A stretch of 49,222 nucleotides of DNA from an uncultured Lachnospiraceae bacterium (GTDB taxonomy: Bacteria; Bacillota; Clostridia; Lachnospirales; Lachnospiraceae): positions 1-49,222 of the forward strand of contig CADBCZ010000022.1 of the NCBI GenBank assembly GCA_902793335.1, given 5' to 3'. Made by a program: the position numbers and the translations under genes. This document shows, in pieces, positions 9,262 to 44,629 of the stretch. Position 1 is the first letter of the stretch. Each line of letters starts with the position of its first letter. Below the pieces are notes generated by a model, which saw only the letters and a list, made by a program, of their open reading frames with translations, made no database searches and was not told the DNA's origin.

Positions 9262-9297
9262 AAGAAGTGCTATAAAGTATTGTGGGAGAGGATGAAA

Positions 9298-12272: not shown

Positions 12273-12293
12273 TGGTGTCCTCCTGATAAAAAA

Positions 12294-12802: not shown

Positions 12803-12832
12803 TTTACATAAGATTTATAGATATGGTATTAT
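12803..12832 (+). promoter_or_regulatory. Candidate sigma-A promoter for the second LicD block
   Basis: TTTACA (12803-12808) and TATTAT (12827-12832) are separated by 18 bases, each one change from the TTGACA/TATAAT consensus. They lie 36 bases before ATG 12868, in the divergent gap with the reverse-strand pair. The rest of that gap (12705-12802) shows no other clear element. Confidence 0.5.
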
Positions 12833-12867
12833 AAAACATAAGAAAAGTTTGGGGTGGTATACGATAA

Positions 12868-13734: not shown

Positions 13735-13818
13735 TTGAGTGTTGATGATATAGAATGTGAAAAAGTGTAATGTTGTTAATGGAAGTGAGTAGATGATAAG
13801 AACTTGGAGAAGTGTCAG

Positions 13819-16176: not shown

Positions 16177-16230
16177 TTGTACAGCATAAGTATTTTGCAG
16201 AAAAGAGAAACATTGAGGGGAATATAAGTT

Positions 16231-22791: not shown

Positions 22792-22896
22792 AGTATTGTT
22801 ATAAACTTAATATATCATATCTAATCAGAAGATATTTAATAAAAAGACAATATTGATGTTATTGTATATACGCTTAAAGGATGGAACTGTATTATT

Positions 22897-24102: not shown

Positions 24103-24191
24103 AATAGAACGCGTTATCTGTGATAAGATGTTTATTTACAATAATGTATGAATATAGATAAAAATGGTTGTGCGAATAGAAGTGGGTTGAT

Positions 24192-25217: not shown

Positions 25218-25243
25218 ATAGATTTTGTATGGGAAGTGATGAG

Positions 25244-25936: not shown

Positions 25937-26945
25937 GTATAAAGCTGCTGTGATTGGACTTGGAAATATCGGATTGATGTATGATTTTGACGAAAAGCGA
26001 AATCATCCTTCAAGTCATTCCCTGGCGTATACTGACTCTGATAATTTTGATTTGGTGTTTTGTGTAGATTCAGATGTAGAAAAGGGAAAATGGCTAAATA
26101 AAATAAACCATAGGGCATATTTTTTTAGAACTATTGATGAAGCAATCAAATGTGGATATGCGAATGATATAGATGTTGTAAGTGTTTGTACACCACCAGA
26201 TACTCATTTTTGTATTCTTTCGGAATTGTTGGAGAAAAAAATTGGTAAAGTTGTTTTTTGTGAAAAGCCGATTGCGTTAAATTCAAAAGAAGCAAAAAAA
26301 ATAAAAGAAATGGTAGAACAATATAATGTTAAGATAATTCCGAATATTTCCAGAAGATGGAATGTTGGATTGAGAAAAGTTAAAGATACTGTGCAAAATC
26401 AAAGATATGGGAAATTAGAGAAGATAAATGTAAGATATACTCGTGGAATATATAATACAGGTTCACATTTGTTCGATATATTGGAGATGTGGACAGGTAC
26501 AGAAATAGAGAGTGTAGAGGCATTAGATAAAACTATTACAACAGCGGAACCTGAACCGACATTTTCATTTTTCTTTAAAATGAGAAATGGTGTTACAGGA
26601 TATGCAGAAGCGATTAATGACGAACAGTACTACATGTTTGAGATAGATATGTTCTTAACTGATGGTAAAATAGAAATGAGAAATAGTGGTGATGATGTTA
26701 GGTATTTTAGCAGAACAAGTCATCATTTATTTGGAGACTTTATGGAATTGAAAGAAGTTGCACATGATGGAAATTTACTTGCAGACTCGTGTATAATGAA
26801 TGCGGTTGATAATATTTCCGGTTGGTTAAAAAATGGTGACAGTGTTTTGTGTTCTTTGGAGAATGCAATAAAGCCTTTATATATAGCAGAAGCATTAGAA
26901 AAATCATTTAATTTAAAACAGGTGGTAAAAGTAAACTATGAGTAG
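25929..26945 (+). CDS. Gfo/Idh/MocA-type NAD(P)-dependent oxidoreductase
   Basis: The 338-residue product has the Rossmann motif AVIGLGNIGLMYDFDEKR, the segment VVSVCTPPDTHFCILSELLE and the catalytic EKP triad in KVVFCEKPIALNSKEAKK, which identify the Gfo/Idh/MocA family. These enzymes oxidise or reduce a sugar hydroxyl or keto group. It overlaps pseF by eight bases and the second aminotransferase by eight bases, so the three are translated together. Oxidoreductase plus aminotransferase is the standard way to exchange a hydroxyl for an amino group. I therefore infer a modification of the nonulosonic acid or of another sugar, carbon unknown. Confidence 0.82.
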   Translation: MSKYKAAVIGLGNIGLMYDFDEKRNHPSSHSLAYTDSDNFDLVFCVDSDVEKGKWLNKINHRAYFFRTIDEAIKCGYANDIDVVSVCTPPDTHFCILSELLEKKIGKVVFCEKPIALNSKEAKKIKEMVEQYNVKIIPNISRRWNVGLRKVKDTVQNQRYGKLEKINVRYTRGIYNTGSHLFDILEMWTGTEIESVEALDKTITTAEPEPTFSFFFKMRNGVTGYAEAINDEQYYMFEIDMFLTDGKIEMRNSGDDVRYFSRTSHHLFGDFMELKEVAHDGNLLADSCIMNAVDNISGWLKNGDSVLCSLENAIKPLYIAEALEKSFNLKQVVKVNYE

Positions 26946-28224
26946 AAGTGCATTTTTAGGAGGAAATCCTGTAAGGGAAAAATCAATACCATGGATTAGC
27001 ACAATGGGCAAAGAAGAAACGGATGCTGTTGTATCAGTGATGGAGTCGGGAACGCTTTCTGCCTTTTTAGCAAAATCCGGAGATAAGTTTTTAGGTGGTT
27101 CTATGGTAAAAGAACTGGAGAGAGCATTTTGTGAAAGATTTAATGCAAAGAATGCAATCACTGTTAATTCTGCTACAACGGCGCTTCATGTTGCTGTTGC
27201 TGCATGTGGAATAGGTCCCGGTGATGAGGTTTTGGTATCTCCGTATACAATGGTTGCAACTGCCAGTTCAGTTCTTATGAATTGTGCTGTTCCTGTTTTT
27301 GTAGATGTAGATCCTGATACATATACGATGGATCCGAGCAAAATTGAACAGTGGATATCACCAAGAACAAAAGCGATTATAACAGTGAATATCTTTGGCT
27401 TACCCAGTAATTTGCCAGAAATAATGGAAATCGCGAAAAAACATAATTTATATGTGATCGAGGATAATGCGCAAGCACCGGGTGCTACTGTAAATGGGGT
27501 TGAATCAGGAACTATTGCAGATATAGGAGTGTTTAGTTTAAATTATCACAAGATCATTCATAGTGGTGAAGGTGGAGTATTACTGACGAATAATGATACT
27601 TTAGCGAGAAATTGCCAATTGATCAGAAACCATGGAGAAGTAGTTCTGGATGAAGAAGGTGATATGGACACAATTGCACTTGGAAGTAATTTAAGAATGA
27701 GTGAACTACATGCGGCAATTGGTATAGAACAATTGAAGAAGTTAGATGCTTTTTTAGAAAGCAGGCGTAGATTAGCGAAAAAGATTTCTGATGGATTGGT
27801 AGAAAGACAGGGATTAAAAGGTGTAACGATACCTCATGGATATACGCATTCTTATTATATATATCCAATAAAGTACGATGCTAATATATGGGGAATAGAC
27901 AGACAGACATTTGCTAAAGCAATGCAAAAGGAAGGATTTCCTTTGGGAGTAGGATATGTAAAGCCTATCTATCTTATGAATATATATAAGCATAAGCATG
28001 TGTTTAATAAGACAACATATCCTTTTGCATTTATAGATGAGCCTATACAAGATTATAAGAAAGGAATTTGTCCGATTGTTGAAAAGCTGTACTTTGAGCA
28101 GTTATTGACTGCGGATATTTGCAGAATACCTTTTACAGAAAGGGATATAGATGACTTTTTTGAGGCTATAGATAAGATATGGGAAGAACGCTTTGAAATC
28201 GCAAAGGTTGTGATTGAAGAATGA
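26938..28224 (+). CDS. Second DegT/DnrJ/EryC1 aminotransferase
   Basis: The 428-residue product is a PLP-dependent sugar aminotransferase distinct from PseC. It shows NSATTALHVAVAACGIGPG, VIEDNAQAPGATVNG and the PLP lysine K205 in NYHKIIHSGEGGVLLTNND, then GSNLRMSELHAAIGIEQLKK. It is about 27 residues longer than PseC and its N-terminus has an extra AFLAKSGDKFLGGSMVKELE stretch. The start overlaps the oxidoreductase gene, its likely partner that makes the keto substrate. It is followed by an ATGA overlap with the next gene. Substrate is unknown; amination at another carbon of the Pse skeleton is an inference. Confidence 0.85.
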   Translation: MSRSAFLGGNPVREKSIPWISTMGKEETDAVVSVMESGTLSAFLAKSGDKFLGGSMVKELERAFCERFNAKNAITVNSATTALHVAVAACGIGPGDEVLVSPYTMVATASSVLMNCAVPVFVDVDPDTYTMDPSKIEQWISPRTKAIITVNIFGLPSNLPEIMEIAKKHNLYVIEDNAQAPGATVNGVESGTIADIGVFSLNYHKIIHSGEGGVLLTNNDTLARNCQLIRNHGEVVLDEEGDMDTIALGSNLRMSELHAAIGIEQLKKLDAFLESRRRLAKKISDGLVERQGLKGVTIPHGYTHSYYIYPIKYDANIWGIDRQTFAKAMQKEGFPLGVGYVKPIYLMNIYKHKHVFNKTTYPFAFIDEPIQDYKKGICPIVEKLYFEQLLTADICRIPFTERDIDDFFEAIDKIWEERFEIAKVVIEE

Positions 28225-29192
28225 AGAAAATTCTATTTGTGGCAAATGATCCCGGGGGATATGATGTAATAAATCCGCTATTTGAACGATTTTCTAAGAT
28301 AAATAAATTAGAAACCGCGATAATGCTAACCGGAAAAGCTGCAGAGAAAGCTGAAAAAGAAGAGAAGACTATAGATGACATAAAACGGGAACTCCAAAAG
28401 AATACTAATTGTATAAAAGATGTTTTGCTGGTGACAGGGACAAGTTGGAATTCAGAAATCGAAGTAAATGCAATTAGATATTGTAAAACGAATAATATTA
28501 AGACGGTTTCAATTCTTGATTATTGGAGCAATTATAAAGAGAGATTTAAATTAGGAGAAGATTACGAGTTCCCAGATTATTATTTTGTTATGGATGAAAT
28601 GGCTGCGTCGGAAGCGGAAGATGACGGGATTAATAAGTCAATTATAAGAGTTGTAGGGACCCCCGGATTAGATTATTTTATTAATAAAAAGATTGAGGTT
28701 AATCAAAATGGAAATGTTGTATTTCTTTCTCAGCCGTTGTCTGTGATATATGGAAATAATTTAGGATATACAGAATATGAAGCCTTTGAGCAGGTGATAA
28801 AAGCGTGTGAGAAATTAAAATTTAAGGTTCATATAAAATTTCATCCCAAGGATGATGAGTTATTTAAAGAAAAATATAAAGCATATTCTATAGAAGGAGA
28901 TTTGAAAAATCTTTGTGAATTAAATGAATACATTGTAGGAATGAGTACGATGGGGTTACTTCAGTGTGCATTGATGGGTGCAAAAGTGATTAGTTTTCAA
29001 CCAGGGTTGATAAAAAAGGATATGAGTATAGTTAATAAATTGGGAATTACTAAAGGTGCGTTTTCATATTCTGATCTCATCTCAAGACTGCAAAAAGATG
29101 GAAAAGAGGTAATGAAAAATAAGCCGTTTTGGATGGATGGGAACTCGATTGAAAGATGTGTAAAGGAAATTGAAAAGATCATTTCAAACTGA
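28221..29192 (+). CDS. GT-B-fold-like protein, possible sialyl/nonulosonate transferase
   Basis: I do not recognise the exact family. The 323-residue product has an N-terminal Rossmann start (KKILFVANDPGGYDVINPLF), SILDYWSNYKERFKLGE and RVVGTPGLDYF in the first half. In the second half it has VVFLSQPLSVIYG, VHIKFHPKDDELF and an EYIVGMSTMGLLQCALMGAK segment. A histidine-proline FHPKDD followed by a ser/thr-rich loop occurs in GT-B enzymes such as bacterial sialyltransferases and KpsS-like proteins, so a transferase using CMP-Pse is possible. It overlaps the second aminotransferase by four bases and is followed after 15 bases by pseI, which ties it to this pathway. Confidence 0.6.
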   Translation: MKKILFVANDPGGYDVINPLFERFSKINKLETAIMLTGKAAEKAEKEEKTIDDIKRELQKNTNCIKDVLLVTGTSWNSEIEVNAIRYCKTNNIKTVSILDYWSNYKERFKLGEDYEFPDYYFVMDEMAASEAEDDGINKSIIRVVGTPGLDYFINKKIEVNQNGNVVFLSQPLSVIYGNNLGYTEYEAFEQVIKACEKLKFKVHIKFHPKDDELFKEKYKAYSIEGDLKNLCELNEYIVGMSTMGLLQCALMGAKVISFQPGLIKKDMSIVNKLGITKGAFSYSDLISRLQKDGKEVMKNKPFWMDGNSIERCVKEIEKIISN

Positions 29193-29207
29193 TTTGGAGA
29201 AAGATTG

Positions 29208-30242
29208 ATGTTTAGAATTTATGATAAAATAAATAACAATGAAGTGTATATTATTGCAGAGATGAGTGCGAATCATGGGGGATCTTTGGAAAATGCACTT
29301 GAAATAGTACGTCTGGCAGCTAAAGCGGGGGCAGATTGTATAAAAATTCAGACATATACAGCAGACTCGCTTACTATTGATTGCGATAACGAATATTTTA
29401 AGATTAAAGGCGGTCTTTGGGATGGTTACAAGCTTTATGACCTTTATAATGAGGCTAATACACCATATGATTGGCAACCGATTATAAAAGAAGAATGTGA
29501 AAAATGTGGTATTGACTTTTTGTCCACTCCTTTTGATAATGATGCAGTTGATTTTTTGGAGAACATGGGGGTAGAGGCATACAAAATAGCAAGTTTTGAA
29601 CTGGTAGATATACCATTAATTGAATATGCGGCTTCAAAGGGAAAAACTATGATTATATCTACAGGGATGGGGAGCTTGGAAGAAATTCAGGAAGCCGTTG
29701 ATGCATGTAAAAGAGTAGGGAATGAGAATATAATACTTCTTAAATGCTGTAGTGAATATCCGGCGCCTTGGGAGGATATGCATTTAGGAAATATACCGGA
29801 TATGGCAAGTAGGTTTAACCTGCCAATTGGATTATCAGATCACAGTGAGGGAAGTCTTGGAGCAGTTGTTGGAGTGACACTTGGAGCTTGTGTGGTTGAA
29901 AAACATATAAAACTAGATGACGTTGAGAGCGCAGATAGTAAATTTAGCATGACAATCGATGGGTTTACACAGATGGTTAGAGATGTCAAAAATGCAAAAA
30001 TGATAGCGCGGGGTCCTGATTATGAATTGACGGAAGGGGAAAAGGCTTCGCAGGTTTTTAGAAGAAGTATATTTGCAGTAAATGATATAAAAGCGGGCGA
30101 TTGCTTTACAAAAAAAAACATTGGCATTATACGTCCGGGATATGGTTTGCCACCACATTGTATCGATATGCTTATAGATAAGAAAAGTAGTAGAGATATT
30201 CCGCGTGGAGTACCAATTGTTAAAAATGATTTGGTGAATTAA
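29208..30242 (+). CDS. pseI: Pseudaminic acid synthase (NeuB family)
   Basis: PseI condenses phosphoenolpyruvate with the free 2,4-diacetamido-trideoxy-altrose to make pseudaminic acid. The 344-residue product has a TIM barrel: IAEMSANHGGSLENALEIV, GADCIKIQTYTADSLTIDC, GIDFLSTPFDNDAVDFLE, YKIASFELVDIPLIEYA and NLPIGLSDHSEG, with EKHIKLD and SADSKFSMT near the metal and PEP sites. An SAF (antifreeze-like) domain covers about residues 285-344 (QVFRRSIFAVNDIKAGD to RDIPRGVPIVK). ATG 29208 is nine bases after GGAG; a TTG at 29205 directly upstream is less likely. The stop abuts the ATG of the formyltransferase. PseI and LegI/NeuB are close relatives, and the pathway context decides. Confidence 0.92.
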   Translation: MFRIYDKINNNEVYIIAEMSANHGGSLENALEIVRLAAKAGADCIKIQTYTADSLTIDCDNEYFKIKGGLWDGYKLYDLYNEANTPYDWQPIIKEECEKCGIDFLSTPFDNDAVDFLENMGVEAYKIASFELVDIPLIEYAASKGKTMIISTGMGSLEEIQEAVDACKRVGNENIILLKCCSEYPAPWEDMHLGNIPDMASRFNLPIGLSDHSEGSLGAVVGVTLGACVVEKHIKLDDVESADSKFSMTIDGFTQMVRDVKNAKMIARGPDYELTEGEKASQVFRRSIFAVNDIKAGDCFTKKNIGIIRPGYGLPPHCIDMLIDKKSSRDIPRGVPIVKNDLVN

Positions 30243-30818
30243 ATGAAAATACTATGTTTATATAATAACTCATGTGCTTTGGAATTGTTTGATTGGATAA
30301 AAGAACAAGGACATGAAACCGTTTTAGAAAAAAACGAACTTGATGAAGAGTGGTGTAGAAATCAACAGTTTGATTTGACAGTAAGTTATACCTATAGATT
30401 TATTATTTCTGCTGATGTATTGAATGCTCTCGGTATGAATGTTGTTAATCTTCATAATTCATTTCTTCCATGGAATAAAGGTGCAGATCCTAATATTTGG
30501 AGTGTTTTGGAAAATACACCAAGAGGTGTTACACTTCATTATGTGGATGAGAAACTAGACCACGGGGATATTATTACACAGCAATTAGTTGAGAAATATA
30601 CTAGTGAAGATACATTGAAAACAACATATGATACTCTAGATTATGCTGCAAAGCAATTATTCAAGAATGCTTTTGCATATTATGATTTTTGGAACAAAAT
30701 GAGGAAGAAAACAGTTTCATCAGGAACTTTTCACAGATCATATGAAATGTCAAAAGTAAAGGATAAATTAGTGGATTACGAAATAAAAATAGAAGATTTT
30801 TATAAAATGTTTAATTAA
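30243..30818 (+). CDS. Formyltransferase of the sugar N-formyltransferase type
   Basis: The 191-residue product matches the catalytic domain of 10-formyltetrahydrofolate-dependent transferases. It has VVNLHNSFLPWNKGADPNIW, containing the Asn and His of the N-x-H motif, and LDHGDIITQQLVEK with the catalytic Asp. It is shorter than methionyl-tRNA formyltransferase and lacks its C-terminal domain, in line with formyltransferases that act on amino sugars. It begins one base after the pseI stop. I infer that it N-formylates an amino group on the nonulosonic acid or its precursor; N-formyl Pse derivatives are known in other bacteria. After it comes a 200-base gap. Confidence 0.8.
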   Translation: MKILCLYNNSCALELFDWIKEQGHETVLEKNELDEEWCRNQQFDLTVSYTYRFIISADVLNALGMNVVNLHNSFLPWNKGADPNIWSVLENTPRGVTLHYVDEKLDHGDIITQQLVEKYTSEDTLKTTYDTLDYAAKQLFKNAFAYYDFWNKMRKKTVSSGTFHRSYEMSKVKDKLVDYEIKIEDFYKMFN

Positions 30819-34255: not shown

Positions 34256-34669
34256 ATGTTGGGAATTTATGATAAATGCAATGTTTGGAAACGCTGGGTA
34301 CAAGTATATCATAGTGGAAAACGGATTGAAAATTATTTTCATAAGTATAATATAAAAACTATTGCAATATATGGAATGTCTGATGTTGGGGATTTCTTAT
34401 ACGGGGAATTAATTAATACAGATATTATGGTTAGATATGGTATAGATATAAATCGTGATTATTGTTCTTATAATCTTCCGATTAAAAGACCGGAAGAAGT
34501 TGAAGATGATGTGGATGCAATAATTGTAACGCCTGTATCTGCTTTTTCCGAAATATTTGATTATTTGTCAAAGTATGTTCCGGATTGTAATAAGATAATA
34601 GGAATAGATGAAGTGTTTGCAGATCTATTAACGGAGGATTACATTGAAGTGGACAAAGAAAACTCATGA
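34256..34669 (+). CDS. Stand-alone Rossmann-like module
   Basis: The 137-residue product consists of a ~30-residue N-terminal helix region and one Rossmann-like domain (about 34-125). It has the dinucleotide-type loop TIAIYGMSDVGDFLYGELIN, a second strand MVRYGIDINRDY, LPIKRPEEVEDDVDAIIVTP and a last strand KIIGIDEVFADL. It resembles the PglD N-terminal domain and the NDP-sugar-binding C-terminal domains of sugar methyltransferases. No other catalytic domain is present. The seven genes downstream have this module fused to different enzymes, so it may serve as a scaffold or sugar-nucleotide-binding partner. It overlaps the radical SAM gene by 26 bases. Confidence 0.65.
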   Translation: MLGIYDKCNVWKRWVQVYHSGKRIENYFHKYNIKTIAIYGMSDVGDFLYGELINTDIMVRYGIDINRDYCSYNLPIKRPEEVEDDVDAIIVTPVSAFSEIFDYLSKYVPDCNKIIGIDEVFADLLTEDYIEVDKENS

Positions 34670-35834
34670 ATTTGATAGAATATGGCTTGATATGAAAATT
34701 AATTGCTCCCAAAAAATTAAGTATTATTTGTTTGGAGCAGGAAAAAGCGGTGATGAGTGGTGGTCATTGATTAATCTGTTTGATGATGGAGGTGTTGCAG
34801 GTTATTTCGACAATAGTAAAAGTATTATAGGGAATAAAAAAAACGGTTGTAAAATATTGGATATTACAAAATATCAACATAAAAAAAACAACATTATAAT
34901 AGTCTCTGTGGGTGAAAAATATGAAAAAAGTATATGTACTCAACTTGAACAAATTGGATTAAAAAGAAATCTTGACTATTATGCGGGATCTGAATTTAGA
35001 GATTTGTATTTTCCAATAATTCTTTTGTATTATTATAATATTCTATATGATGATATGGTACAAATATCGGTTACCGAAAGATGTACGTTAAAATGTAAGC
35101 ACTGTGCTCACACGTGTCCATACGTAGATTATAATAACAAAACAGATTTATTATTAAACGAGGTGAAAGAAAGTGCTGATGCATACTTTAGTACTTTTGA
35201 TTATGTAAATAGGTTTACCCTTCTAGGAGGAGAGCCTCTATTATATAAGGAATTGACAGATGCATTAATTTATATCGGTGAGCGTTATAGAAATAGGATT
35301 AGAGATTTCTTTATTACAACCAATGCGACTGTTTTGCCGAAGGAAGATTTGATAAATGTTTGTAAAAAGTATGAAGTTGGCTTTGAGATATCCGATTATA
35401 GACAAGCAGTTCCGGTGATAAGTGATAAGGTTAAACAATTTATTAATATATTGAAAGAAAGTAATGTTAAATATCGTATTTTAAATGACAGGTGGATAGA
35501 TCTAGGTTTTCCATATATTAATAATTCGGAAAATGATGCTAAGCGAATTTTTGATTTATGTGGTGCACCATGTCATGAGGTTCGAAAAACAAGATATTAT
35601 TCTTGTATTTTGGCACGATGTGCAGCAGAAAATATATATAGTGATGAGGGCGAAGAGTATTATGTTGATATAGCAAATTCTGATGATGATACAAGAAAAA
35701 TAGTTTTTGAATTCATACATGGGTATTGTGATAAAGGATACTTGAAATTGTGTCGACATTGTAGAGGTTTGTTTGGAGAAAACAATATTGTAGTACCAGG
35801 TGTACAAATGAGTAAGGGGAATGAAGGAGACTAG
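34644..35834 (+). CDS. Radical SAM protein with N-terminal Rossmann-like module
   Basis: The N-terminal ~120 residues are a Rossmann-like module (IKYYLFGAGKSGDEWWSL, GGVAGYFDNSKSIIGNKKNG). The radical SAM domain follows with the [4Fe-4S] motif CTLKCKHC (C147, C151, C154) and FTLLGGEPLLYKELTDALIY. Extra cysteines in the C-terminal part (LCGAPCHEVRKT, YSCILARCAAENIY, LKLCRHCRGLF) suggest a SPASM-like region with auxiliary clusters. The start is TTG 34644, supported by GGAGG six bases upstream; translation begins 26 bases before the previous stop. Radical SAM enzymes in sugar clusters can dehydrate, epimerise or oxidise sugars, while SPASM types often modify peptides. The substrate is unknown, and a sugar or flagellin side chain is possible. 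Confidence 0.78.
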   Translation: MKWTKKTHEFDRIWLDMKINCSQKIKYYLFGAGKSGDEWWSLINLFDDGGVAGYFDNSKSIIGNKKNGCKILDITKYQHKKNNIIIVSVGEKYEKSICTQLEQIGLKRNLDYYAGSEFRDLYFPIILLYYYNILYDDMVQISVTERCTLKCKHCAHTCPYVDYNNKTDLLLNEVKESADAYFSTFDYVNRFTLLGGEPLLYKELTDALIYIGERYRNRIRDFFITTNATVLPKEDLINVCKKYEVGFEISDYRQAVPVISDKVKQFINILKESNVKYRILNDRWIDLGFPYINNSENDAKRIFDLCGAPCHEVRKTRYYSCILARCAAENIYSDEGEEYYVDIANSDDDTRKIVFEFIHGYCDKGYLKLCRHCRGLFGENNIVVPGVQMSKGNEGD

Positions 35835-35836
35835 AT

Positions 35837-37348
35837 ATGAAAGTATTCGCATATTATTTACCACAGTATCACAGAGTACCAATAAACGATAAATGGTGGG
35901 GGGAAGGGTTTACTGAATGGATTTCAGTAAGGAATGCGAAACCGTTATACGAAGGACATTATCAACCTCGTGAACCCATGAATGATAATTATTATAGTCT
36001 TTTAGATAAGGAAACAATGGAGTGGCAGGCTGATTTAATGCACGAGTATGGAATTGATGGAATGTGCTTCTATCATTATTGGTTTTCTTCTGAAGAGCAA
36101 GTACTAGAAAAACCAGCAGAAAATCTTTTAGTGTGGAAGAATATTGATATGCCATTTTGTTTTTCGTGGGCAAATGAGTCATGGCTTAACAAGTGGAGTT
36201 CGAGAGAAGGATTTGCCTGGACTGATAATGAAAAAGAGAAAAAGAGTGAACTTAAATATATTTTTCTTCAAACCTATGGTAGAGAGAACGAATGGAGAGA
36301 ACACTTTGAGTATTTATTGCCGTTTTTTAAGGATGAAAGATATATTAAATATAATGATAAACCATTGTTCGTCATTCACGATGTTTACACGATTCCTTGT
36401 CTACATGAAATGCTGAGATTATGGAATGATATGGCGATCTATAACGGATTCAAAGGTATTTATGTAATTGGAGGGGGTATACCTGATATTTATAGTTGTG
36501 TAGATGCATATATGACACACGAACCAGGAAATGTAAAAAAATATATTAATACATATGCTAGTATGCCTTCGCGCTATTCATACAAGGAGGCTTCTGAAAC
36601 AATTCTTGAGCAGAAATATTATAAAGGAACTACGATGATGTACTCCACGTTTTGTAGTTATGATACAACACCGCGTTATGGAAAAGATGGAGATGTATAT
36701 GAATATGTGACACCAGAATTTTTTTGTGAGCATCTGTCAAGGTTGATGGCTAAAAATCATATGGCTGGAGTAGATATGGTTTTTATTGATGCATGGAATG
36801 AATGGGGAGAGGGTATGCATCTTGAACCAGACGAGAAATATGGTTTTCGCTGGCTTGAAGCAGTCAAGCAGGCAAAAAATGATTATAAAAATTATGAGGC
36901 GGATTATAGGGATATTCAATATGTCACCGAATATGAAAAAAAAGTTCTTTGCAATGTGAAGAAGGGTGAGTTGTATGGAACGATATTGAGCAGATGGATG
37001 ACTTTACGAGAGAATAACGTGAATGTAACAGATTATTTATTTACAGCTGGTATTGAAAGAGTGGTGTTATATGGATTAGGTATTTTTTCAAATCATTTCT
37101 TATGGGAATGCATAAGGAATAACATAGATGTGGTTGGAGCAGTAGATAAATCTATACATTTTGTGTTAGAAAACATTACTTTATACCAAATGACGGATAA
37201 ACTTCCAGAAGCAGATGCTATTATTATTACGGCACCATATTATACTGATAGTATATGTGAAGAAATAAGGAAATATGATAAGGATATTAAAATAATTTCA
37301 ATATATGAATTAATAATATTGGCCGAAGAAAAATTAATAAAAAGGTAA
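35837..37348 (+). CDS. WbsX-type (GH99-like) protein with C-terminal Rossmann-like module
   Basis: Residues 1 to about 365 match the WbsX family (PF14307), a GH99-like TIM barrel found in O-antigen and capsule clusters. It has AYYLPQYHRVPINDKWWGEG, FTEWISVRNAKPLYEGHYQP, GIDGMCFYHYWF, FCFSWANESW and VFIDAWNEWGEGMHLEPDEK. The natural activity of WbsX proteins is poorly defined; both hydrolysis and transfer have been proposed. The last ~105 residues are a Rossmann-like module (IERVVLYGLGIFSNHFLWEC, DVVGAVDKSIHF, EADAIIITAPYYTDSICEEI). ATG 35837 follows AAGGAG. It lies two bases after the radical SAM gene and nine bases before the methyltransferase gene, in one operon. Confidence 0.8.
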   Translation: MKVFAYYLPQYHRVPINDKWWGEGFTEWISVRNAKPLYEGHYQPREPMNDNYYSLLDKETMEWQADLMHEYGIDGMCFYHYWFSSEEQVLEKPAENLLVWKNIDMPFCFSWANESWLNKWSSREGFAWTDNEKEKKSELKYIFLQTYGRENEWREHFEYLLPFFKDERYIKYNDKPLFVIHDVYTIPCLHEMLRLWNDMAIYNGFKGIYVIGGGIPDIYSCVDAYMTHEPGNVKKYINTYASMPSRYSYKEASETILEQKYYKGTTMMYSTFCSYDTTPRYGKDGDVYEYVTPEFFCEHLSRLMAKNHMAGVDMVFIDAWNEWGEGMHLEPDEKYGFRWLEAVKQAKNDYKNYEADYRDIQYVTEYEKKVLCNVKKGELYGTILSRWMTLRENNVNVTDYLFTAGIERVVLYGLGIFSNHFLWECIRNNIDVVGAVDKSIHFVLENITLYQMTDKLPEADAIIITAPYYTDSICEEIRKYDKDIKIISIYELIILAEEKLIKR

Positions 37349-37356
37349 GTATATTT

Positions 37357-38298
37357 ATGGAGAGAATAGCGATATATGGAGCAGGTAAATACGGTAAGCT
37401 TGTAAAGACTATTTATGAGAAAAAAGGATGTAAAATAGCATGTTTTATAGTTTCATGCTATCGAGGTGGGGATAAGTTCATAGATGGAGTAGAAATAATA
37501 GGTATAGCTGATATTGATGAGGCGGAGTTGTGTGTGTCTAAAATAATAGTCGCTATGGACGAAAGAAATTGGGTGAGTGTAAAAAAAAGATTATTGGAGA
37601 GTTTGCCGAGTTATTGTAAAGATATGGTTGTTTTTTTGACACATAATGATATTCAAAAAATGATGAGAGAGACATTTCCTTTTGAAATGGATAGGATTTT
37701 ACATGCGACAGAACCAGTGAGTAGGGACTTTGGTTTAGACAGAGGGACAGCTATAGATAGGTATTATATTGAAAAATTCTTGCGCGAAGAAAGTAGACAT
37801 ATCAAAGAACCATGTATAACACTTGAAGTAGGAGAAGATACATATAGCAAACGATATTTTCCCGGGGCAAGACATGACATATTGGACTTTTCTCGGGGGA
37901 TGGATTTAACAAAACCAGAATCTTTACCATTAGAAATGTATGATGTTTTTATATGTACTCAAACGTTTCATCAAATATATGATTTGAAGAAGGCTATACA
38001 TGGTGCCTGGAAACTGTTGAAATATGGCGGTACTATGCTGGCAACAGTCTGTGGGTGTGTAACGCAACTGGCAAGAACTGAAGATTGGGATCACTATTGG
38101 GGGTTTACAGTTGCTTCGTTTAGAAAGTTGCTAAAAGAGCAATTTGGAGAGGATGTTGTGGTGTTGGGATATGGAAATTCAATGGTTGCAACTGCTTTTA
38201 TTCAAGGGATGGCTCTAGAAGAAATAGATAATACATTATTGGATATAAATGATAATGATTTTTCTATATGCATATCCGCTGTAGTGCGGAAAAACTAA
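37357..38298 (+). CDS. SAM-dependent methyltransferase with N-terminal Rossmann-like module
   Basis: The first ~100 residues are the Rossmann-like module: MERIAIYGAGKYGKLVKTIY, IACFIVSCYRGGDKFIDGVE and SKIIVAMDERNW. The remaining ~200 residues look like a class I methyltransferase: CITLEVGEDTYSKRYFPGAR, LPLEMYDVFICTQTFHQIYD, IHGAWKLLKYGGTMLATVCG and a WGFTVASFRKLLKEQFGED end, as in type 11 methyltransferases. The glycine-rich SAM loop is weak (EVGEDTYS). It would methylate a sugar hydroxyl or amine in this pathway. The gap to the neighbouring genes is 8 and 21 bases. Confidence 0.75.
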   Translation: MERIAIYGAGKYGKLVKTIYEKKGCKIACFIVSCYRGGDKFIDGVEIIGIADIDEAELCVSKIIVAMDERNWVSVKKRLLESLPSYCKDMVVFLTHNDIQKMMRETFPFEMDRILHATEPVSRDFGLDRGTAIDRYYIEKFLREESRHIKEPCITLEVGEDTYSKRYFPGARHDILDFSRGMDLTKPESLPLEMYDVFICTQTFHQIYDLKKAIHGAWKLLKYGGTMLATVCGCVTQLARTEDWDHYWGFTVASFRKLLKEQFGEDVVVLGYGNSMVATAFIQGMALEEIDNTLLDINDNDFSICISAVVRKN

Positions 38299-38319
38299 CA
38301 GGTTGGGATTGAAGATATT

Positions 38320-39576
38320 ATGGAATTATTAGATTATTGTAGAAACTATAAAAAGGTGTACATCTTTGGCGATGGAGAAATAGGGAGGCTTGTTAGAATT
38401 TATCTGCATGAGAAAGGAATGAAGGTTGAAGCTTTTGTTACAACTAATACTCCCAAACAGTCTATGATTTTAGATTTGCCGGTATATCCGTTGAATCAAT
38501 TGTGTTATGAAAATGATGACTCAAAGTGTTTTATTATAAGTGTAAATGAAAATGCTGTAGATATAATAAGGGATAAGTTGTTAAGAAAAGGATTCAATCA
38601 AACTTTTGTTGTTGATAATTTAGTGAAACATGATTTATATGAATCTGTTAGTTTTGAATACGATTATTCAGATGTAGAACAGGAAAAAAAACTTGCAGTA
38701 TTATTATATCATCGTATAGGGGAACAGAATGATCCTTATAATATAGTTGTATCAAAAGAGAACTTTGAATCTCACTTAATGTATATTAAGGATAACTATG
38801 ATATTATTGGGTGCGGTGATTCATTAAAGGCTAAAAAGAAAAAAACTGTAGCATTAACATTTGATGATGGTTATGTTGATTTTTATCAAAACGCATTTCC
38901 TCTGCTATTAAAGTATCAAATTCCAGCTACGGTTTTTATTTCAACTGGGAATATTGGAAATGACAGAGGATTTTGGTGGGATGAATTAGAGTATATTATT
39001 TTTGATAAGAAATTACCGGAATGCATTGAGGTTTGTGGGATAAAAGTTGATACAAAAGAATATTATACCCGTAAGGAATTGCTTTTGGCGGTAAGAGGAA
39101 TAATTCTTAACAACAATTATATCGACAGAGATGAAAGTATAGACGACTTATGGAAGCAGATAGGACAAAGTCGTTTTTTTATAGCTAATAATCGAACTAT
39201 GAATGAAAAAGAAATAGCAGAAATTGCTAAAAATTCGTTGATTACGATAGGTGCGCATACTGTTTCTCATGTCATTTGTTGTAAAGAGAGTAATGATGAA
39301 TTAGTGCATCAAATACAAGAATCGAAGAACCATTTGGAGGATATAATTAAGAAAGAGGTTGACTTATTCGCGTACCCCAACGGTGATTTTGATAATAAGT
39401 CAATAGAAGCTCTAAGACAGATTGGATTTAAACGCGCATTTACATGTATTCATGCGTGCGTGAATGATGAAAATAAAGAATATGAAATACCAAGATTTGG
39501 AATTTCAAATTGGGAAGGGAAAGATGTAAGAAAAGGATTTCGTAGCATTTGGATGACAGATAGAGGGCGTTATTGA
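38320..39576 (+). CDS. Polysaccharide deacetylase (CE4) with N-terminal Rossmann-like module
   Basis: Residues 1 to about 110 are the Rossmann-like module (KKVYIFGDGEIGRLVRIYLH, VEAFVTTNTPKQSMILDLP, KCFIISVNENAVDIIRDKL). The rest is a NodB-type deacetylase. Motif 1 is VALTFDDGYVDFYQNAFPLL (about 180-185 for TFDDGY), motif 2 is GAHTVSH (about 311-317, with both metal-binding histidines) and motif 3 is LFAYPNGDFDNKSI. CE4 enzymes remove N-acetyl groups from sugars in a metal-dependent reaction. There is no signal peptide, so it acts in the cytoplasm, unusual for CE4 enzymes and suggestive of deacetylating a glycan intermediate or sugar donor. It could free an amino group for formylation or another acyl group. 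Confidence 0.85.
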   Translation: MELLDYCRNYKKVYIFGDGEIGRLVRIYLHEKGMKVEAFVTTNTPKQSMILDLPVYPLNQLCYENDDSKCFIISVNENAVDIIRDKLLRKGFNQTFVVDNLVKHDLYESVSFEYDYSDVEQEKKLAVLLYHRIGEQNDPYNIVVSKENFESHLMYIKDNYDIIGCGDSLKAKKKKTVALTFDDGYVDFYQNAFPLLLKYQIPATVFISTGNIGNDRGFWWDELEYIIFDKKLPECIEVCGIKVDTKEYYTRKELLLAVRGIILNNNYIDRDESIDDLWKQIGQSRFFIANNRTMNEKEIAEIAKNSLITIGAHTVSHVICCKESNDELVHQIQESKNHLEDIIKKEVDLFAYPNGDFDNKSIEALRQIGFKRAFTCIHACVNDENKEYEIPRFGISNWEGKDVRKGFRSIWMTDRGRY

Positions 39577-39588
39577 TAGGTGTAGTTT

Positions 39589-40995
39589 ATGGATAGAATT
39601 GTTTTATATGGGGCAGGAAAAGAATTAAGCGAAAATTATAGTGAACTAGTGAACTTGCCTGATGTTGTTATTATTTGTATTGTGGATAGTAATAGTGATA
39701 AATGGGGAGAGGTTTTTGAGGGTAATAGGATTTGCTCTATTTCAGATATTGATGAATATTATGATTATATTGTAATAGCTTGTTCATATGCATTTGAAAT
39801 AAGCAATAGATTAATAGAATTAGGCATAAAAGAAGAAAAAATAATCCGGTTAAAGGAGTATTTGGGTTTTAAAAATAGTAAAAACTGCAGAATCTATAAA
39901 AAAAATAACGAAGTTGTTGACACTACGAGTAGTACTCAAAAAAGCATTGCTGCTATTGTTCCGGTTGGAGAGTTTAATGGAGCTTGTCTGGCAGTTTTAT
40001 ATTTGCTTGAGGAGTTAAAAAAATATGGTTATAAAGTAGGGATTGCTGCCACATATGCTGATGATGAGTTTATTAGTTATGTTATAAAAAATGATGTGGA
40101 GATTTGTGTGTATCGCAATATAGAGTTTGTCTCATATAATGAGTTTGACTGGATTAAACAATTCGACATAATTATTGTTAACACATTGACGGCACATAAA
40201 GCAATTTGCAATTTACATTATGCTAGAGTGTATTGGTGGATTCATGAATCGGAGAGTTCCTATGAATACGAAACAAGGTTATGGGGAGAGTTTAATGAAG
40301 ATAATTATAATGTGAACAAGGTTCTTGGCGTGAGTGATATGGCTATAGATGTTTTTCACAAATACTTCCCCAATACAGACATTGTGAAATTTGAGTATGG
40401 ATTGCCAGATTTTTATGTAGAAAAGGATAATAATAATGCAGAGATTAAAACAGTAGTATTTGCAATTATAGGAAGGGTTTCATACGAAAAAGGAATAGAT
40501 ATATTTGTAGAATCGATAAAAAAAATAAAAGATAATTTAATTTCGAAATGTCAGTTTTGGATTATTGGAAAATTATACGATGATAATTTCTGTAAGGGGC
40601 TTTTGGAGGAAACCTGTGGGTTGCCAATAAAGTTTATGGGAGAGTTGCCGCATGATAAAATAAAACAGTTATATCCCCAAATAGATGTTGTAGTGAATGC
40701 GTCTAGAATGGATTCACTTCCGATAGTCATTTCTGAGGCATTTATGAATAGAAAGATAGCTGTTATGGCGGATGTTATAGGCACAGCTAGCTATATTGAG
40801 AATTTACGTGATGCATTTATATTTAAATCTGAAGACAGTGATGAGTTGGCAACTATAATAGAATATATAATAAATAATTTCCATAATCTTGAGTATATGA
40901 AAGAAAACGCAAGGCGGGTTTATGAAAATGTATTTTCGATGAATGGATTAGATTATCGTATTGATAAAGTAATATGTAGTGCTGATGAAATGTAG
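39589..40995 (+). CDS. GT4-type glycosyltransferase with N-terminal Rossmann-like module
   Basis: The first ~100 residues are the Rossmann-like module (MDRIVLYGAGKELSENYSEL, VVIICIVDSNSDKWGEVFEG, DYIVIACSYAFEISNRLI). From about 120 a GT-B glycosyltransferase follows, with AIVPVGEFNGACLAVLYLLE, the GT4 donor half (AIIGRVSYEKGIDIFVESIK, QFWIIGKLYDDNFC, LPIKFMGELPHDKIKQLYP) and the acidic site MDSLPIVISEAFMNRKIAVM. The middle IHESESSYEYETRLWGEFN segment is typical of GT4 transferases in polysaccharide clusters. The gene follows the deacetylase after 12 bases. The next gene starts 13 bases after its stop. Sugar specificity is unknown. Confidence 0.83.
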   Translation: MDRIVLYGAGKELSENYSELVNLPDVVIICIVDSNSDKWGEVFEGNRICSISDIDEYYDYIVIACSYAFEISNRLIELGIKEEKIIRLKEYLGFKNSKNCRIYKKNNEVVDTTSSTQKSIAAIVPVGEFNGACLAVLYLLEELKKYGYKVGIAATYADDEFISYVIKNDVEICVYRNIEFVSYNEFDWIKQFDIIIVNTLTAHKAICNLHYARVYWWIHESESSYEYETRLWGEFNEDNYNVNKVLGVSDMAIDVFHKYFPNTDIVKFEYGLPDFYVEKDNNNAEIKTVVFAIIGRVSYEKGIDIFVESIKKIKDNLISKCQFWIIGKLYDDNFCKGLLEETCGLPIKFMGELPHDKIKQLYPQIDVVVNASRMDSLPIVISEAFMNRKIAVMADVIGTASYIENLRDAFIFKSEDSDELATIIEYIINNFHNLEYMKENARRVYENVFSMNGLDYRIDKVICSADEM

Positions 40996-41008
40996 GGAGG
41001 GCGGATAT

Positions 41009-42292
41009 ATGTCTGTTCGTGTATCAATTATTTTACCATCGTTAAATGTAGCTGATTATATTGAAGAAACACTTGAAAGTGTAAAGAGACAATCGCTTTA
41101 TGATATAGAAATAATATGTATAGATGCAGGATCTGTAGATGGAACATGGGAAATTATTAAGAAGTGTTCCTATGGTGATAAACGATTTAGGCTATTACAT
41201 AGCCCTATAAAAAGTTATGGGCATCAGGTTAATATGGGATTGGAAATTGCACAGGGAGATTATGTAGCAATTCTTGAAACCGATGATTATGTTACAAGTG
41301 GAATGTATGAAACACTTTATAAAAATGCAATAAAGTGGAATGTTGATTATGTTAAATGTGATTACAGTGCTTTTTATATGGATAAAGAAAATAATAGGAG
41401 GCTTATTAGCAGAGTAATAACAACAAATGACAAGTATTATGAAACCCCATTTTGCCCTGGTAATGAATCTTGTGCGGCGATAGATGATTGGTATTTATGG
41501 AATGGTATATATAAACGTAGCTTTATTATAAATAAAGGGATAACTCTTTCTGAAACACCTGGAGCGGCATTTCAAGATATAGGATTCTTACATCAGGTTT
41601 TGTCATTTGCTGAAAAAGCTATATACATTAAAGATGATTTACACAGGTATCGATTAGATAGAGATGAGGCATCTTCAAATTCAAACAAGACGTTATTTTA
41701 TATTAGGCAGGAATATGGATGTTTGTTTGACAAACAAAAAAATGAAAAAAATAATAGTAAACTGCTTTATAAGAGAATGGCTAAATCATATGTTAGGGCT
41801 TGTATGGATAGTAGTGATAATGTTTTGAACAGTCAGGATGGACGTGATATATGTGAGTGGTTTAATGAGAAATTAATATATGCACAAGATAATAATATTG
41901 TAAAAATAGAAGATATACCGTTTAGTATGCGCAGAATATACACAAAGTTATTAGAATCAGTTGTTGAATACATTGACTATAGAAATAATAGATTGGATGA
42001 ACTAAAATTATTTCTGAATAATAGTGCCGATATTATTATTTTTGGATGCGGCGCGTATGGGATGGAAGCATATAATAATATTATAAAAAGAGGATTTAAG
42101 ATTAAAGCATTTATGGATAATAATAATGCTTTGTGGGGAAAAAGAATTCAAGGTATCAACGTTATTAATCCTCAAGAGGTTTGCAAATTACCTGATGACG
42201 TTGGTTATATTATTGCAAATGAAAAATATTCTGGCGATATAGAAAGACAGCTACGTTTTATGAAAAAACAGATTAATATTTTTATATATTAA
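41009..42292 (+). CDS. GT2 glycosyltransferase with C-terminal Rossmann-like module
   Basis: The N-terminal ~220 residues are a GT-A, family 2 transferase: VSIILPSLNVADYIEETLES, CIDAGSVDGTWEII, GHQVNMGLEIAQGDYVAILE and the metal-binding ETDDYV. A helical region follows (about 230-335). The last ~90 residues form the Rossmann-like module (DIIIFGCGAYGMEAYNNIIK, IKAFMDNNNALWGKRIQG, VGYIIANEKYSGDIERQLRF). An in-frame start at 40979 would overlap the previous gene, but ATG 41009 follows GGGAGGG and is where GT2 proteins begin. It is the second protein here with the module at the C-terminal end. Confidence 0.85.
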   Translation: MSVRVSIILPSLNVADYIEETLESVKRQSLYDIEIICIDAGSVDGTWEIIKKCSYGDKRFRLLHSPIKSYGHQVNMGLEIAQGDYVAILETDDYVTSGMYETLYKNAIKWNVDYVKCDYSAFYMDKENNRRLISRVITTNDKYYETPFCPGNESCAAIDDWYLWNGIYKRSFIINKGITLSETPGAAFQDIGFLHQVLSFAEKAIYIKDDLHRYRLDRDEASSNSNKTLFYIRQEYGCLFDKQKNEKNNSKLLYKRMAKSYVRACMDSSDNVLNSQDGRDICEWFNEKLIYAQDNNIVKIEDIPFSMRRIYTKLLESVVEYIDYRNNRLDELKLFLNNSADIIIFGCGAYGMEAYNNIIKRGFKIKAFMDNNNALWGKRIQGINVINPQEVCKLPDDVGYIIANEKYSGDIERQLRFMKKQINIFIY

Positions 42293-42339
42293 AACAGAAT
42301 GGATAAACATGGGATTAATACTTAAAGAGGAGAGGCACT

Positions 42340-43413
42340 ATGATAATATCTATTTTTGGTGCTCAGGGCTATGCCCTTGGCACGTATATGGCAATTAAAG
42401 AGATGGTTCCTGCAAGGAAGATAGATTGCTTTCTTGTGTCTGAGATGGGGATGAATGCGAAGACGCTAGCAGGTATTCCAGTTCGTGAAATTAAGGATTT
42501 TTCTTTGAATATGAGTGACGAAGATAAGTCTGACGTGGAAATAATTATTGGCACACCGGAGATGGTTCATGATGAGATTGAAGAGTTGTTGTTAAGTTAT
42601 GGTTTTCATAATATTGTTCGTCTGACATCATCAAGATGGGCTGAACTCATGGATCAGTATCATGCAAAATTAGATTCATTTACTCCACTTAAATGCTTGC
42701 CGGTAGGTAGTGTTGAACCGTCATTAAGAATATATTCGGTTAAGTCACATGCCGATAAAGCGTTAAAGAGGGAATATGAAATACCGAATTATATGGTACC
42801 TATACAGGTAGGAAAGGCGTTGGTGGATCAGAAGGTGACTGAAGTGACGGATGATATCGGTGATAACATTTCTTTGAAAAACGGTAATTATTGTGAGTTG
42901 ACAGCGCTTTACTGGATGTGGAAGAATTGTTTCCCGGTAGGAAAAGAACAGTATTATGGACTGGCTCAATACAGGAGAAGATTTGAGTTGTCGCAGGATG
43001 ATTTGCTGAGACTTTGTAGTAATGATGTGGATGTTCTGCTTCCTTATCCATTACCTTATGCACCGGATATACAGGAGCATCATAAGAGATATATAAAGGA
43101 CGAGGATTGGAATGTGCTTATAAGAGTACTTGAAGAATTACAGCCGGAATATGCTAAAGCATACAAGGATATATTGGAGCAACCATTTCTTTATAATTAT
43201 AATGTTATTATTGCAAAGAAAGAAGTTATGATGGATTACTGTAGCTGGCTGTTTCCTATACTTGCAAGAGTAGAGGAATTGTCAGTGCCTAAAGGAAGTG
43301 AGCGATCAGACAGATATATCGGATATATGGGTGAGAATTTGGAAACATTGTATTTTATGTACAATGCAGAAAAACTTAATATAGTACATGCGGGGTGCAG
43401 GTTGCTTGTTTAG
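42340..43413 (+). CDS. DUF4422 glycosyltransferase with N-terminal Rossmann-like module
   Basis: Residues 1 to about 105 are a Rossmann-like module (MIISIFGAQGYALGTYMAIK, IDCFLVSEMGMNAKTLAGIP, VEIIIGTPEMVHDEIEELL). The rest matches DUF4422 (PF14393), a family of capsule and O-antigen glycosyltransferase-like proteins: NYCELTALYWMWKN, YYGLAQYRRRFELSQDDLLR, LPYPLPYAPDIQEHHKRYI and PFLYNYNVIIAKKEVMMDYC. The start ATG 42340 follows AAAGAGGAGAGG. It is the last of eight consecutive products with this module. Its base composition is less AT-rich than that of the preceding genes. A hairpin overlaps its stop codon, and glf follows. DUF4422 next to glf is consistent with galactofuranose or galactose transfer, but this is inference. 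Confidence 0.8.
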   Translation: MIISIFGAQGYALGTYMAIKEMVPARKIDCFLVSEMGMNAKTLAGIPVREIKDFSLNMSDEDKSDVEIIIGTPEMVHDEIEELLLSYGFHNIVRLTSSRWAELMDQYHAKLDSFTPLKCLPVGSVEPSLRIYSVKSHADKALKREYEIPNYMVPIQVGKALVDQKVTEVTDDIGDNISLKNGNYCELTALYWMWKNCFPVGKEQYYGLAQYRRRFELSQDDLLRLCSNDVDVLLPYPLPYAPDIQEHHKRYIKDEDWNVLIRVLEELQPEYAKAYKDILEQPFLYNYNVIIAKKEVMMDYCSWLFPILARVEELSVPKGSERSDRYIGYMGENLETLYFMYNAEKLNIVHAGCRLLV

Positions 43414-43426: not shown

Positions 43427-43507
43427 TTGTTATATCTATACAATGTTAGTGAAATAATCTTTGTATCATATTTATAATAAATGACAGGAAAAAGGGGAGA
43501 TGTAATT

Positions 43508-44629
43508 ATGGCACAATACGATTATCTTATAGTAGGCGCAGGGTTATACGGCTCAGTAATGGCCAGGGAACTTACGGATGTAGGAAAGAAAGTCCTGGTA
43601 ATAGATAAACGTCCTCATATAGCAGGAAATGTTTATACAGAAGAAATTGAAAAGATACAGGTACACAAATATGGTGCACACATCTTCCATACGAATAATA
43701 AGCAAGTGTGGGACTATGTTAATAAATTTGCAGAATTTAACAGATTCACTAATTCACCGGTGGCAAATTATAAGGGTGAACTTTATTCATTGCCGTTTAA
43801 TATGTACACATTTAACAAAATGTGGGGAGTGGTTACGCCAAAAGAGGCAATGGAAAAAATTGAAGAGCAGAAAAAAGAAGCAGATATTAAGGAACCACAT
43901 AACCTTGAAGAACAGGCTATAAGTCTGGTGGGCAAAGATATTTATGAAAAGCTTATTAAGGGATACACTGAGAAACAGTGGGGCAGACCTTGCACTGAAC
44001 TTCCTGCATTTATTATTAAAAGGCTTCCGGTCAGGTTGACATTTGATAATAACTATTTCAATGCACTTTATCAGGGCATACCAATAGGCGGATATACTAA
44101 AATGGTAGAGAAAATGTTGGATGGAATAGAAGTCAGAGTTAAAACTGATTATCTTAAAAATAAGCAAAAGCTTGGTGAGCTTGCTGATAAGGTGATATAC
44201 ACCGGACCTATTGATGCTTATTTTGATTATAAGTTGGGTACTCTTCAGTATCGTTCAGTTCGCTTTGAGACAGAAGTGCTTGATATGCCTAACTATCAGG
44301 GGAATGCTGCAGTGAACTATACAGATAGAGAAACTCCATGGACACGTATCATTGAACACAAATGGTTTGAGTTTGGAAAGGATATAGAGGGTAATGATAT
44401 TCCAAAGACTGTGATAAGCAGGGAATACAGCTCTGAATGGAAACCGGGAGATGAGCCGTATTATCCGGTGAATGATGAGAAGAATAATAATTTGTACGAA
44501 AAATATCATGACTTAGCAGAAACTGAGAAAAAGGTGATTTTCGGTGGACGACTTGGCGAATATAAATATTATGATATGGATGCAGTTATCGCGGCCGCAC
44601 TTGATAAAGTGAATATCATCTCCACTTGA
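43508..44629 (+). CDS. glf: UDP-galactopyranose mutase
   Basis: Glf interconverts UDP-galactopyranose and UDP-galactofuranose with a reduced FAD cofactor. The 373-residue product is near the usual length and has the FAD-binding start YDYLIVGAGLYGSVMARELT, VLVIDKRPHIAGNVYTE, KYGAHIFHTNN and the substrate-loop region KGYTEKQWGRPCTELPAFII. It ends with VIFGGRLGEYKYYDMDAVIA. An in-frame ATG at 43481 adds nine residues; ATG 43508 lies after GGGGAGATG and fits the family. It implies that galactofuranose is part of the glycan made here or nearby. Confidence 0.95.
   Translation: MAQYDYLIVGAGLYGSVMARELTDVGKKVLVIDKRPHIAGNVYTEEIEKIQVHKYGAHIFHTNNKQVWDYVNKFAEFNRFTNSPVANYKGELYSLPFNMYTFNKMWGVVTPKEAMEKIEEQKKEADIKEPHNLEEQAISLVGKDIYEKLIKGYTEKQWGRPCTELPAFIIKRLPVRLTFDNNYFNALYQGIPIGGYTKMVEKMLDGIEVRVKTDYLKNKQKLGELADKVIYTGPIDAYFDYKLGTLQYRSVRFETEVLDMPNYQGNAAVNYTDRETPWTRIIEHKWFEFGKDIEGNDIPKTVISREYSSEWKPGDEPYYPVNDEKNNNLYEKYHDLAETEKKVIFGGRLGEYKYYDMDAVIAAALDKVNIIST

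Follow-up and report, generated by a model that had tools for sequence, protein, structure and literature searches.

Docking domains of assembly-line enzymes and cohesin-dockerin systems are familiar cases in which a recurring non-catalytic domain sits on different enzymes of one pathway, and both bind through matching partners of different kinds. Rossmann-like domains are known from other settings: the redox repressor Rex has a nicotinamide adenine dinucleotide (NAD(H)) domain with a full NAD(H) site together with a DNA-binding domain, and the solved chain 2g6t from Clostridium acetobutylicum, after which the Pfam family C2185-like_N (PF22674) is presumably named, is a single uncharacterised protein with such a domain at its N-terminus. 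PglD_N (PF17836), found in the NeuD, PglD and VioB sugar acetyltransferases, occurs on one enzyme type, a left-handed beta-helix acetyltransferase, and binds a uridine diphosphate (UDP)-sugar. A study on a PglD relative describes the N-terminal domain as a platform for UDP that acts through Ser11, Asp40 and Asp41, the serine and first aspartate contacting the ribose and the next aspartate the uracil (PMC8040287). The WbaP-type domain (PF13727) of large phosphoglycosyl transferases and the CapD/PglF-type domain (solved as 3nkl) are likewise non-catalytic parts of glycan-pathway proteins. In WbaP this domain supplies most of the contacts between the two chains of the dimer; uridine monophosphate (UMP), UDP and uridine triphosphate (UTP) stabilise it, and UMP inhibits the enzyme with a half-maximal inhibitory concentration (IC50) of 4.1 uM. 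In the excerpts considered, the domain follows a bundle of four membrane helices in phosphoglycosyl transferases and in dehydratases, and is not described as a tag shared by a whole cluster (PMC10942596). Here we describe a row of eight consecutive genes, at positions 34256-43413 of contig CADBCZ010000022.1 from an uncultured Lachnospiraceae bacterium, each of which carries a homologous copy of a transferable module, Rossmann-like and about 80-105 residues long, at either end of an enzyme or alone. The whole stretch of DNA analysed, 49,222 nucleotides long, is referred to as the window, and genes or proteins with the module as tagged.

An open reading frame (ORF) check of the window places the eight genes in an unbroken series on the forward strand, with the module N-terminal in five products, C-terminal in two and alone in one. 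The reality of the module was tested with a leave-out profile of 223 modules, from which the window sequences, loci L022-L031 (same genus) and five named duplicates of these were excluded; its members had been gathered by an iterated profile seeded with the window modules, and some of their loci may belong to the window's genus. This profile matches exactly these eight among the 38 window ORFs, with expectation (E) values of 2e-19, 4e-18, 6e-17, 3e-15, 4e-15, 3e-13, 8e-12 and 6e-10, while the remaining ORFs, the reversed sequences and the shuffled ones (five for each ORF) give nothing better than E 0.07, which rules out a chance similarity of glycine loops. The genes flanking the row (32768-34255 and 43481-44629) have no module by the same profile. 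In the 3.61-Mb genome of the organism no match at E <= 1e-4 lies outside this 9.2-kb stretch, which contains all eight, and an eight-row profile run at a cut-off of 10 adds one marginal match at E 0.044. The first-pass annotation of this DNA, made from the sequence alone, had assigned the module to each of the eight products, with the same counts by position, and had named their catalytic partners; both assignments hold, Pfam supporting the seven partner families, the methyltransferase weakly (Methyltransf_11, E 7e-4, below the Pfam cut-off).

The domain so named is largely invisible to Pfam, which detects it in three of the eight proteins and above cut-off in one. PglD_N scores 24.5 bits on the methyltransferase module against a gathering cut-off of 23.4, and 22.2 bits (E 2e-4), just under the cut-off, on that of the GT2 glycosyltransferase. 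C2185-like_N gives 20.8 and 25.5 bits on the GT4 module (E 5e-4) without passing its cut-off of 27, which a relative in locus L024 does pass with 34.6 bits. For the other five window modules Pfam gives nothing better than E 0.06; in NCBIfam the deacetylase module shows a trace of NeuD_NnaD (E 0.0035), and the stand-alone protein matches neither Pfam nor NCBIfam. Within the window, identity to the methyltransferase module is no more than 13-27%.

Structure prediction covered two of the eight modules, the other six being assigned by profile. The AlphaFold2 models of the stand-alone protein (predicted local distance difference test score, pLDDT, 87.6; predicted template modelling score, pTM, 0.82) and of the DUF4422 module (pLDDT 92.6) are both Rossmann-like, with a strand-helix-strand unit followed by strand-helix-strand-helix, rather than the unrelated folds that the annotation had named as counter-evidence. 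Foldseek returned Rex, 2g6t, WeeI, WbaP and 3nkl as best matches, with Rex on top; these matches are modest, the best being E 2e-3 for the stand-alone protein and 5e-4 for the DUF4422 module (E 0.001 or better: none and two, respectively), and the WbaP domain is matched at E 1.9e-3. Against solved chains, a profile of the enzyme-borne modules gave 3nkl 3e-11, 2g6t 3e-10, Rex 9e-9, VioB 8e-8 and WbaP 4e-5, and the first 42-row alignment gave Rex 1e-9, 3nkl 4e-8, VioB 3e-7, 2g6t 1e-5 and WbaP only 0.025. From these matches the module is assigned to the Rossmann-like accessory-domain superfamily that includes PglD_N, C2185-like_N, the CapD-type domains and Rex.

Within this superfamily the module differs from each described relative. 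VioB and WeeI, which carry PglD_N, match by profile and by fold; however, the module here sits on many enzyme classes, its window partners are seven other families or none and never a hexapeptide acetyltransferase, hexapeptide repeats occur in 3 of 110 tagged proteins sampled outside the window, and three of the eight window modules have no ribose-binding aspartate. The WbaP-type and CapD/PglF-type domains are homologous by profile, but tagged enzymes have other partner domains and, with one exception among 208, no hydrophobic stretch in their first 45 residues. The solved chain found most like the module is 2g6t, whose residues 1-91 the profile covers; a literature search for CAC2185 or 2G6T returned as its only match a paper off-topic by title. 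Rex is the top fold match and a strong profile match; its DNA-binding domain and full NAD(H) site are so far features of Rex rather than of the module. This kind of domain is already known; a cluster-wide use of it as a tag is not described in the open-access literature searched in full text, among the matches listed.

Clusters with many tagged genes are found in other genomes as well. A single 42-row profile finds at least five module matches in 9 of the 26 genus genomes, in 25 of 120 from the family and in 10 of 199 sampled from the phylum, the window's own genome being included in each count. Only genomes with at least five matches were counted, since Rex-type and CapD-type frames (~210-250 and 620-690 amino acids) make up many of the listed matches in genomes with one to three, the counts per genome being complete; this threshold counters such proteins as the source of the counts, which may still hold a few of them each, and five or six weak matches (as in genome G061) may be background. 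After removal of duplicates, 277 of 1021 genes in 62 loci are tagged, figures that are not frequency estimates because L032-L051 were chosen for many modules and L052-L088 for a stand-alone gene. Thirty-one loci have at least five tagged genes, and 25 of these contain an unbroken run of at least three; the longest run is that of the window. With the leave-out profile, these counts bear out the first-pass proposal of one homologous module joined cluster-wide to unrelated enzymes, and cluster-wide co-occurrence was found rather than its absence. Among the loci there are also two proteins with two modules each (L025:9477-11912, 811 amino acids; L048:14529-16217, 562 amino acids, with the modules close together) and proteins of ~770-785 amino acids with a C-terminal module: L024:13317-15632, which has no Pfam match, and L063:1060-3411 and L071:4814-7138, which start with a DIFDTL motif that presumably recalls HAD hydrolases.

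In the non-redundant set the module is N-terminal in 115 proteins (close to the N-terminus in two more), C-terminal in 92, stand-alone in 47 and placed elsewhere in 5, and it occurs on 59 mutually unrelated enzyme classes, defined as BLAST single-linkage groups at E 1e-6 with the modules masked, so that distant homologues count apart. A Pfam census covered 110 of 212 tagged proteins and 112 of 276 untagged ones, the latter drawn from clusters with at least five tagged genes, and compared the 25 most frequent families on each side. Tagged families included GT2 (22), radical SAM (11), GT4 (9), WbsX (6), FkbM methyltransferase (5), RgpF (4), GT-D (4) and GT8 (3); frequent untagged ones were methyltransferases (9), NAD-dependent epimerases (7), GT2 (7), CDP-glycerol transferases (4), DegT aminotransferases (3) and cytidylyltransferases (3). 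The 25 untagged families include the epimerase, DegT and NTP-transferase families; the 25 tagged ones do not. Most but not all transferases are therefore tagged, methyltransferases fall into both groups, and the listed families of sugar-nucleotide synthesis stand on the untagged side only. The nucleotide-sugar synthesis genes of the window follow the same pattern, Pfam and the leave-out profile finding no module in them (Table 1).

Table 1. Tagged genes of the window and two untagged features near them (E values from Pfam and, for the module, from the leave-out profile).
Feature	Position	Strand	Evidence
Stand-alone module protein, 137 amino acids	34256..34669	+	Module core ~34334-34579, E 6e-17
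Radical SAM protein, N-terminal module ~34689-34976	34644..35834	+	PF04055 E 7e-12; module E 3e-13
WbsX-family protein, C-terminal module ~37037-37306, stand-alone type	35837..37348	+	PF14307 E 9e-104; module E 8e-12
Methyltransferase-like protein, N-terminal module ~37360-37599	37357..38298	+	PF17836 PglD_N E 4e-5; module E 3e-14
CE4 polysaccharide deacetylase, N-terminal module ~38338-38613	38320..39576	+	PF01522 Polysacc_deac_1 E 5e-29; module E 3e-15
GT4-type glycosyltransferase, N-terminal module ~39592-39855	39589..40995	+	PF00534 Glycos_transf_1 E 4e-24; module E 4e-18
GT2 glycosyltransferase, C-terminal module ~42017-42262	40979..42292	+	PF00535 Glycos_transf_2 E 8e-27; module E 2e-19
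DUF4422 protein, N-terminal module ~42346-42624	42340..43413	+	PF14393 E 7e-47; module domain E 1e-9, weakest of eight
Nonulosonate-type sugar synthesis genes, untagged (context)	21793..30818	+	Pfam; no module
UDP-galactopyranose mutase, untagged (context)	43481..44629	+	PF03275 E 2e-83; no module

Within the row, the stand-alone and radical SAM ORFs share 26 bases, an overlap of the two genes seen in L037 too, and the GT4 and GT2 ORFs overlap by 17. The untagged synthesis genes comprise Polysacc_synt_2, two DegT aminotransferases, Glyco_tran_28_C, a cytidylyltransferase, Gfo/Idh/MocA, NeuB and a formyltransferase, with a weak Pfam match to a polysialyltransferase. DUF4422 is found in the galactofuranose-transferase part (GT111) of Klebsiella WbbM (PMC12269835), which fits a DUF4422 gene adjoining that of the UDP-galactopyranose mutase. 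Directly upstream of the row lie two untagged genes (32768-34255 and 31647-32771) with weak Pfam matches only (Capsule_synth, propeller repeat); a relative of the first precedes the stand-alone gene in the same position in L037, with 49% identity over 234 residues of a partial frame at the end of the stretch. Farther away, at 3668-18222, is a row of LicD-family genes (773, 778, 288, 790 and 663 amino acids), most with long extra regions, and among them a protein of 694 amino acids that combines GT-D with a hexapeptide domain; all of these lack the module.

In relatives the stand-alone proteins are mostly 150-170 residues long, and the module is preceded by 55 residues or more in 37 of the 45 non-redundant copies. 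A hydrophobic stretch, taken as a mean Kyte-Doolittle value of at least 1.6 over 17 residues within the first 45 (an average, not a topology prediction), is present in 32 of the 45, all among the 37 with a long N-terminus; it occurs in 22 of 276 untagged genes. The stand-alone type of module has a conserved preceding helix and also occurs C-terminally on several WbsX proteins; in the window, a whole-genome search matches the WbsX module to the stand-alone protein at E 7e-5. Over all loci, 11 WbsX proteins are fused to a module, 7 are unfused and encoded directly beside a stand-alone gene (one of them split into two ORFs) and 4 are bare, a pattern that rests on loci picked through either WbsX or the stand-alone gene. 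Where a stand-alone gene is present all 12 of 12 WbsX genes are fused (5) or adjacent (7), the seven adjacencies having a chance of about 1e-5 under random placement; the four bare ones all lie in loci lacking such a gene, and one of these loci, L029, contains another tagged gene.

Taken together, these observations lead us to a model, tentatively put first among those considered here, in which the module would be an assembly (docking) tag that gathers the enzymes of a pathway. We favour it because the module is swapped between unrelated enzymes, because a free copy with a likely membrane anchor exists in many relatives and pairs with WbsX, and because the nucleotide site is often incomplete; the untagged state of the window's nucleotide-sugar synthesis genes and the dimer contacts of the homologous domain in WbaP (PMC10942596) were counted in the same direction. 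In this model, module-module contacts would hold the glycosyltransferases and the tailoring enzymes (deacetylase, methyltransferase, radical SAM protein and WbsX) together, so that enzymes gathered in one place would assemble and modify a single oligosaccharide. The hydrophobic N-terminal stretch that most free copies have in relatives may be read as a membrane anchor, which would recruit WbsX and other partners to the inner membrane, the site of lipid-linked glycan synthesis; in the window, where the copy has no such stretch and its gene overlaps that of the radical SAM protein, it would act as a soluble adaptor. It is also thinkable, from the related WbaP domain, that nucleotide bound to those modules that keep GxGxxG...D would strengthen or gate the contacts. 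In docking domains and cohesin-dockerin pairs the partners differ in kind, whereas here one fold, recognised from sequence, sits on all the enzymes, and the binding between modules is something we infer.

A number of observations weigh against an assembly tag. Some transferases of tagged clusters are themselves untagged (GT2 7, WbsX 2 and methyltransferase families up to 9 among the 112 untagged genes), and the GxGxxG motif and the aspartate are well kept over the family, which favours ligand binding in many copies. The nearest relative of a module lies in the same locus for 12 of 261 modules (shuffle mean 5.3, maximum 12), so that likeness within a locus hardly exceeds chance and gives no sign of locus-specific matching pairs; tags homogenised within each cluster are, by the same figures, not found. 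The window's stand-alone protein is one of the eight short copies and has no hydrophobic stretch. Within the retrieved stretches no stand-alone gene is seen in 13 of the 31 loci with at least five tagged genes, and where one is present 28 of 39 loci have no WbsX and 6 of 39 no other tagged enzyme. Only 2 of 20 tagged genomes searched whole (G119 and G314) have the stand-alone type in a frame of less than 190 amino acids; these 20 are non-random, consisting of 12 with a locus lacking the stand-alone gene, 7 without a retrieved locus, and G119, which has the gene in one of three retrieved loci, and a 138-amino-acid frame in G228 matches the general profile only. On these stretches and genomes the stand-alone copy is therefore ruled out as an obligatory or universal hub. 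The adaptor role proposed for it at first pass draws indirect support from the hydrophobic stretches and from its pairing with WbsX, and falls away where universality is concerned.

The nearest and main rival, possible but on balance unlikely and not exclusive of an assembly tag, is that each module is a regulator that binds uridine or another nucleotide and tunes its own enzyme, the pathway as a whole answering to one metabolite. The profile homology and fold match to the WbaP domain speak for it, as do the stabilisation of that domain by uridine nucleotides and the UMP inhibition of WbaP (PMC10942596). So does conservation: over about 260 modules the three glycines are kept at 98%, 84% and 71% (alanine 13% at the third) and the aspartate at 83%. 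The four-residue fingerprint GxGxxG...D, scored with G or A at the third position and Asp or Glu at the last, rests like the tree described below on about 80 positions of a strongly diverged alignment; it is complete in 152 of 264 modules (C-terminal 57 of 97, N-terminal 57 of 120, stand-alone 38 of 47). In the window, however, only the radical SAM and GT2 modules, two of eight, keep all four residues, which rules out a common intact nucleotide site there and runs counter to the first-pass suggestion that all the modules hold one shared nucleotide sugar through a canonical site. Five of the eight keep the aspartate; it is replaced by Val in the methyltransferase, Thr in the deacetylase and Val or Thr in the DUF4422 protein, and Val stands at this position in 11% of all modules, so that these residues may mark a different ligand or none. 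That the site is incomplete in six of eight window modules is easier to reconcile with a structural role than with ligand binding alone. Moreover, the stand-alone copy has no catalytic domain to regulate, and deacetylases, radical SAM proteins and methyltransferases have no obvious consumption of nucleotide sugars.

We regard as improbable a second alternative, that the modules have no common function and are old enzyme-specific accessory domains that travel with their enzymes and meet only because glycan genes cluster. Much of the relatedness among modules is of the kind it predicts: the nearest relative is in the same enzyme class for 142 of 261 modules (shuffle mean 18.8) and at the same end for 192 of 261 (shuffle mean 97), so that many fusions are old, and the low identity among window modules fits as well. 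For the other 119, counting stand-alone copies as one class, the nearest relative is in a different class, so that re-attachment has also been frequent. On a FastTree tree at least 118 class changes are needed, where single origins would give 59 and shuffling gives a mean of 197; placement changes number 60 against a shuffle mean of 112.5, and 8 of the 59 classes carry the module at either end. Independent accessory domains would also sit uneasily with the existence of stand-alone copies that pair with WbsX, with the unbroken tagged runs in 25 of the 31 richest loci, and with window nucleotide-sugar synthesis genes that stay untagged.

The weakest proposal, which we consider very unlikely, is that the module binds the nucleotide-sugar donor, or else the product, of the enzyme that carries it, in the manner of the PglD N-terminal domain with its UDP-sugar: PglD_N is indeed the only Pfam match above cut-off, VioB and WeeI match by structure, and the domain of a PglD relative is a UDP platform (PMC8040287), but some partner enzymes have no obvious use for a nucleotide sugar, the aspartate is lost from three window modules, and the uracil-binding aspartate of PglD_N is not matched, the residue at that position being N in 26%, K in 20%, S in 15% and R in 11% of the family (~72% together).

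Returning to the assembly tag, we suggest with greater reserve that, in Lachnospiraceae and some other families of the phylum, an interchangeable tag on transferases and tailoring enzymes of diverse folds may bind its like and also, in loci that have one, a membrane-anchored free copy, forming a modular assembly line for surface glycans whose steps would be gained or lost with tagged enzymes. We know of no earlier case of a whole pathway under one nucleotide-sensor domain, so the arrangement would be notable even if the tag proved to be a sensor. The module bears on how bacteria keep many surface-glycan enzymes at work on a single lipid-linked chain. If a common tag does mark the enzymes of a pathway, it would provide a sequence handle on which enzymes belong together, predict their physical assembly, and offer a part with which glycosyltransferases might be joined on purpose.

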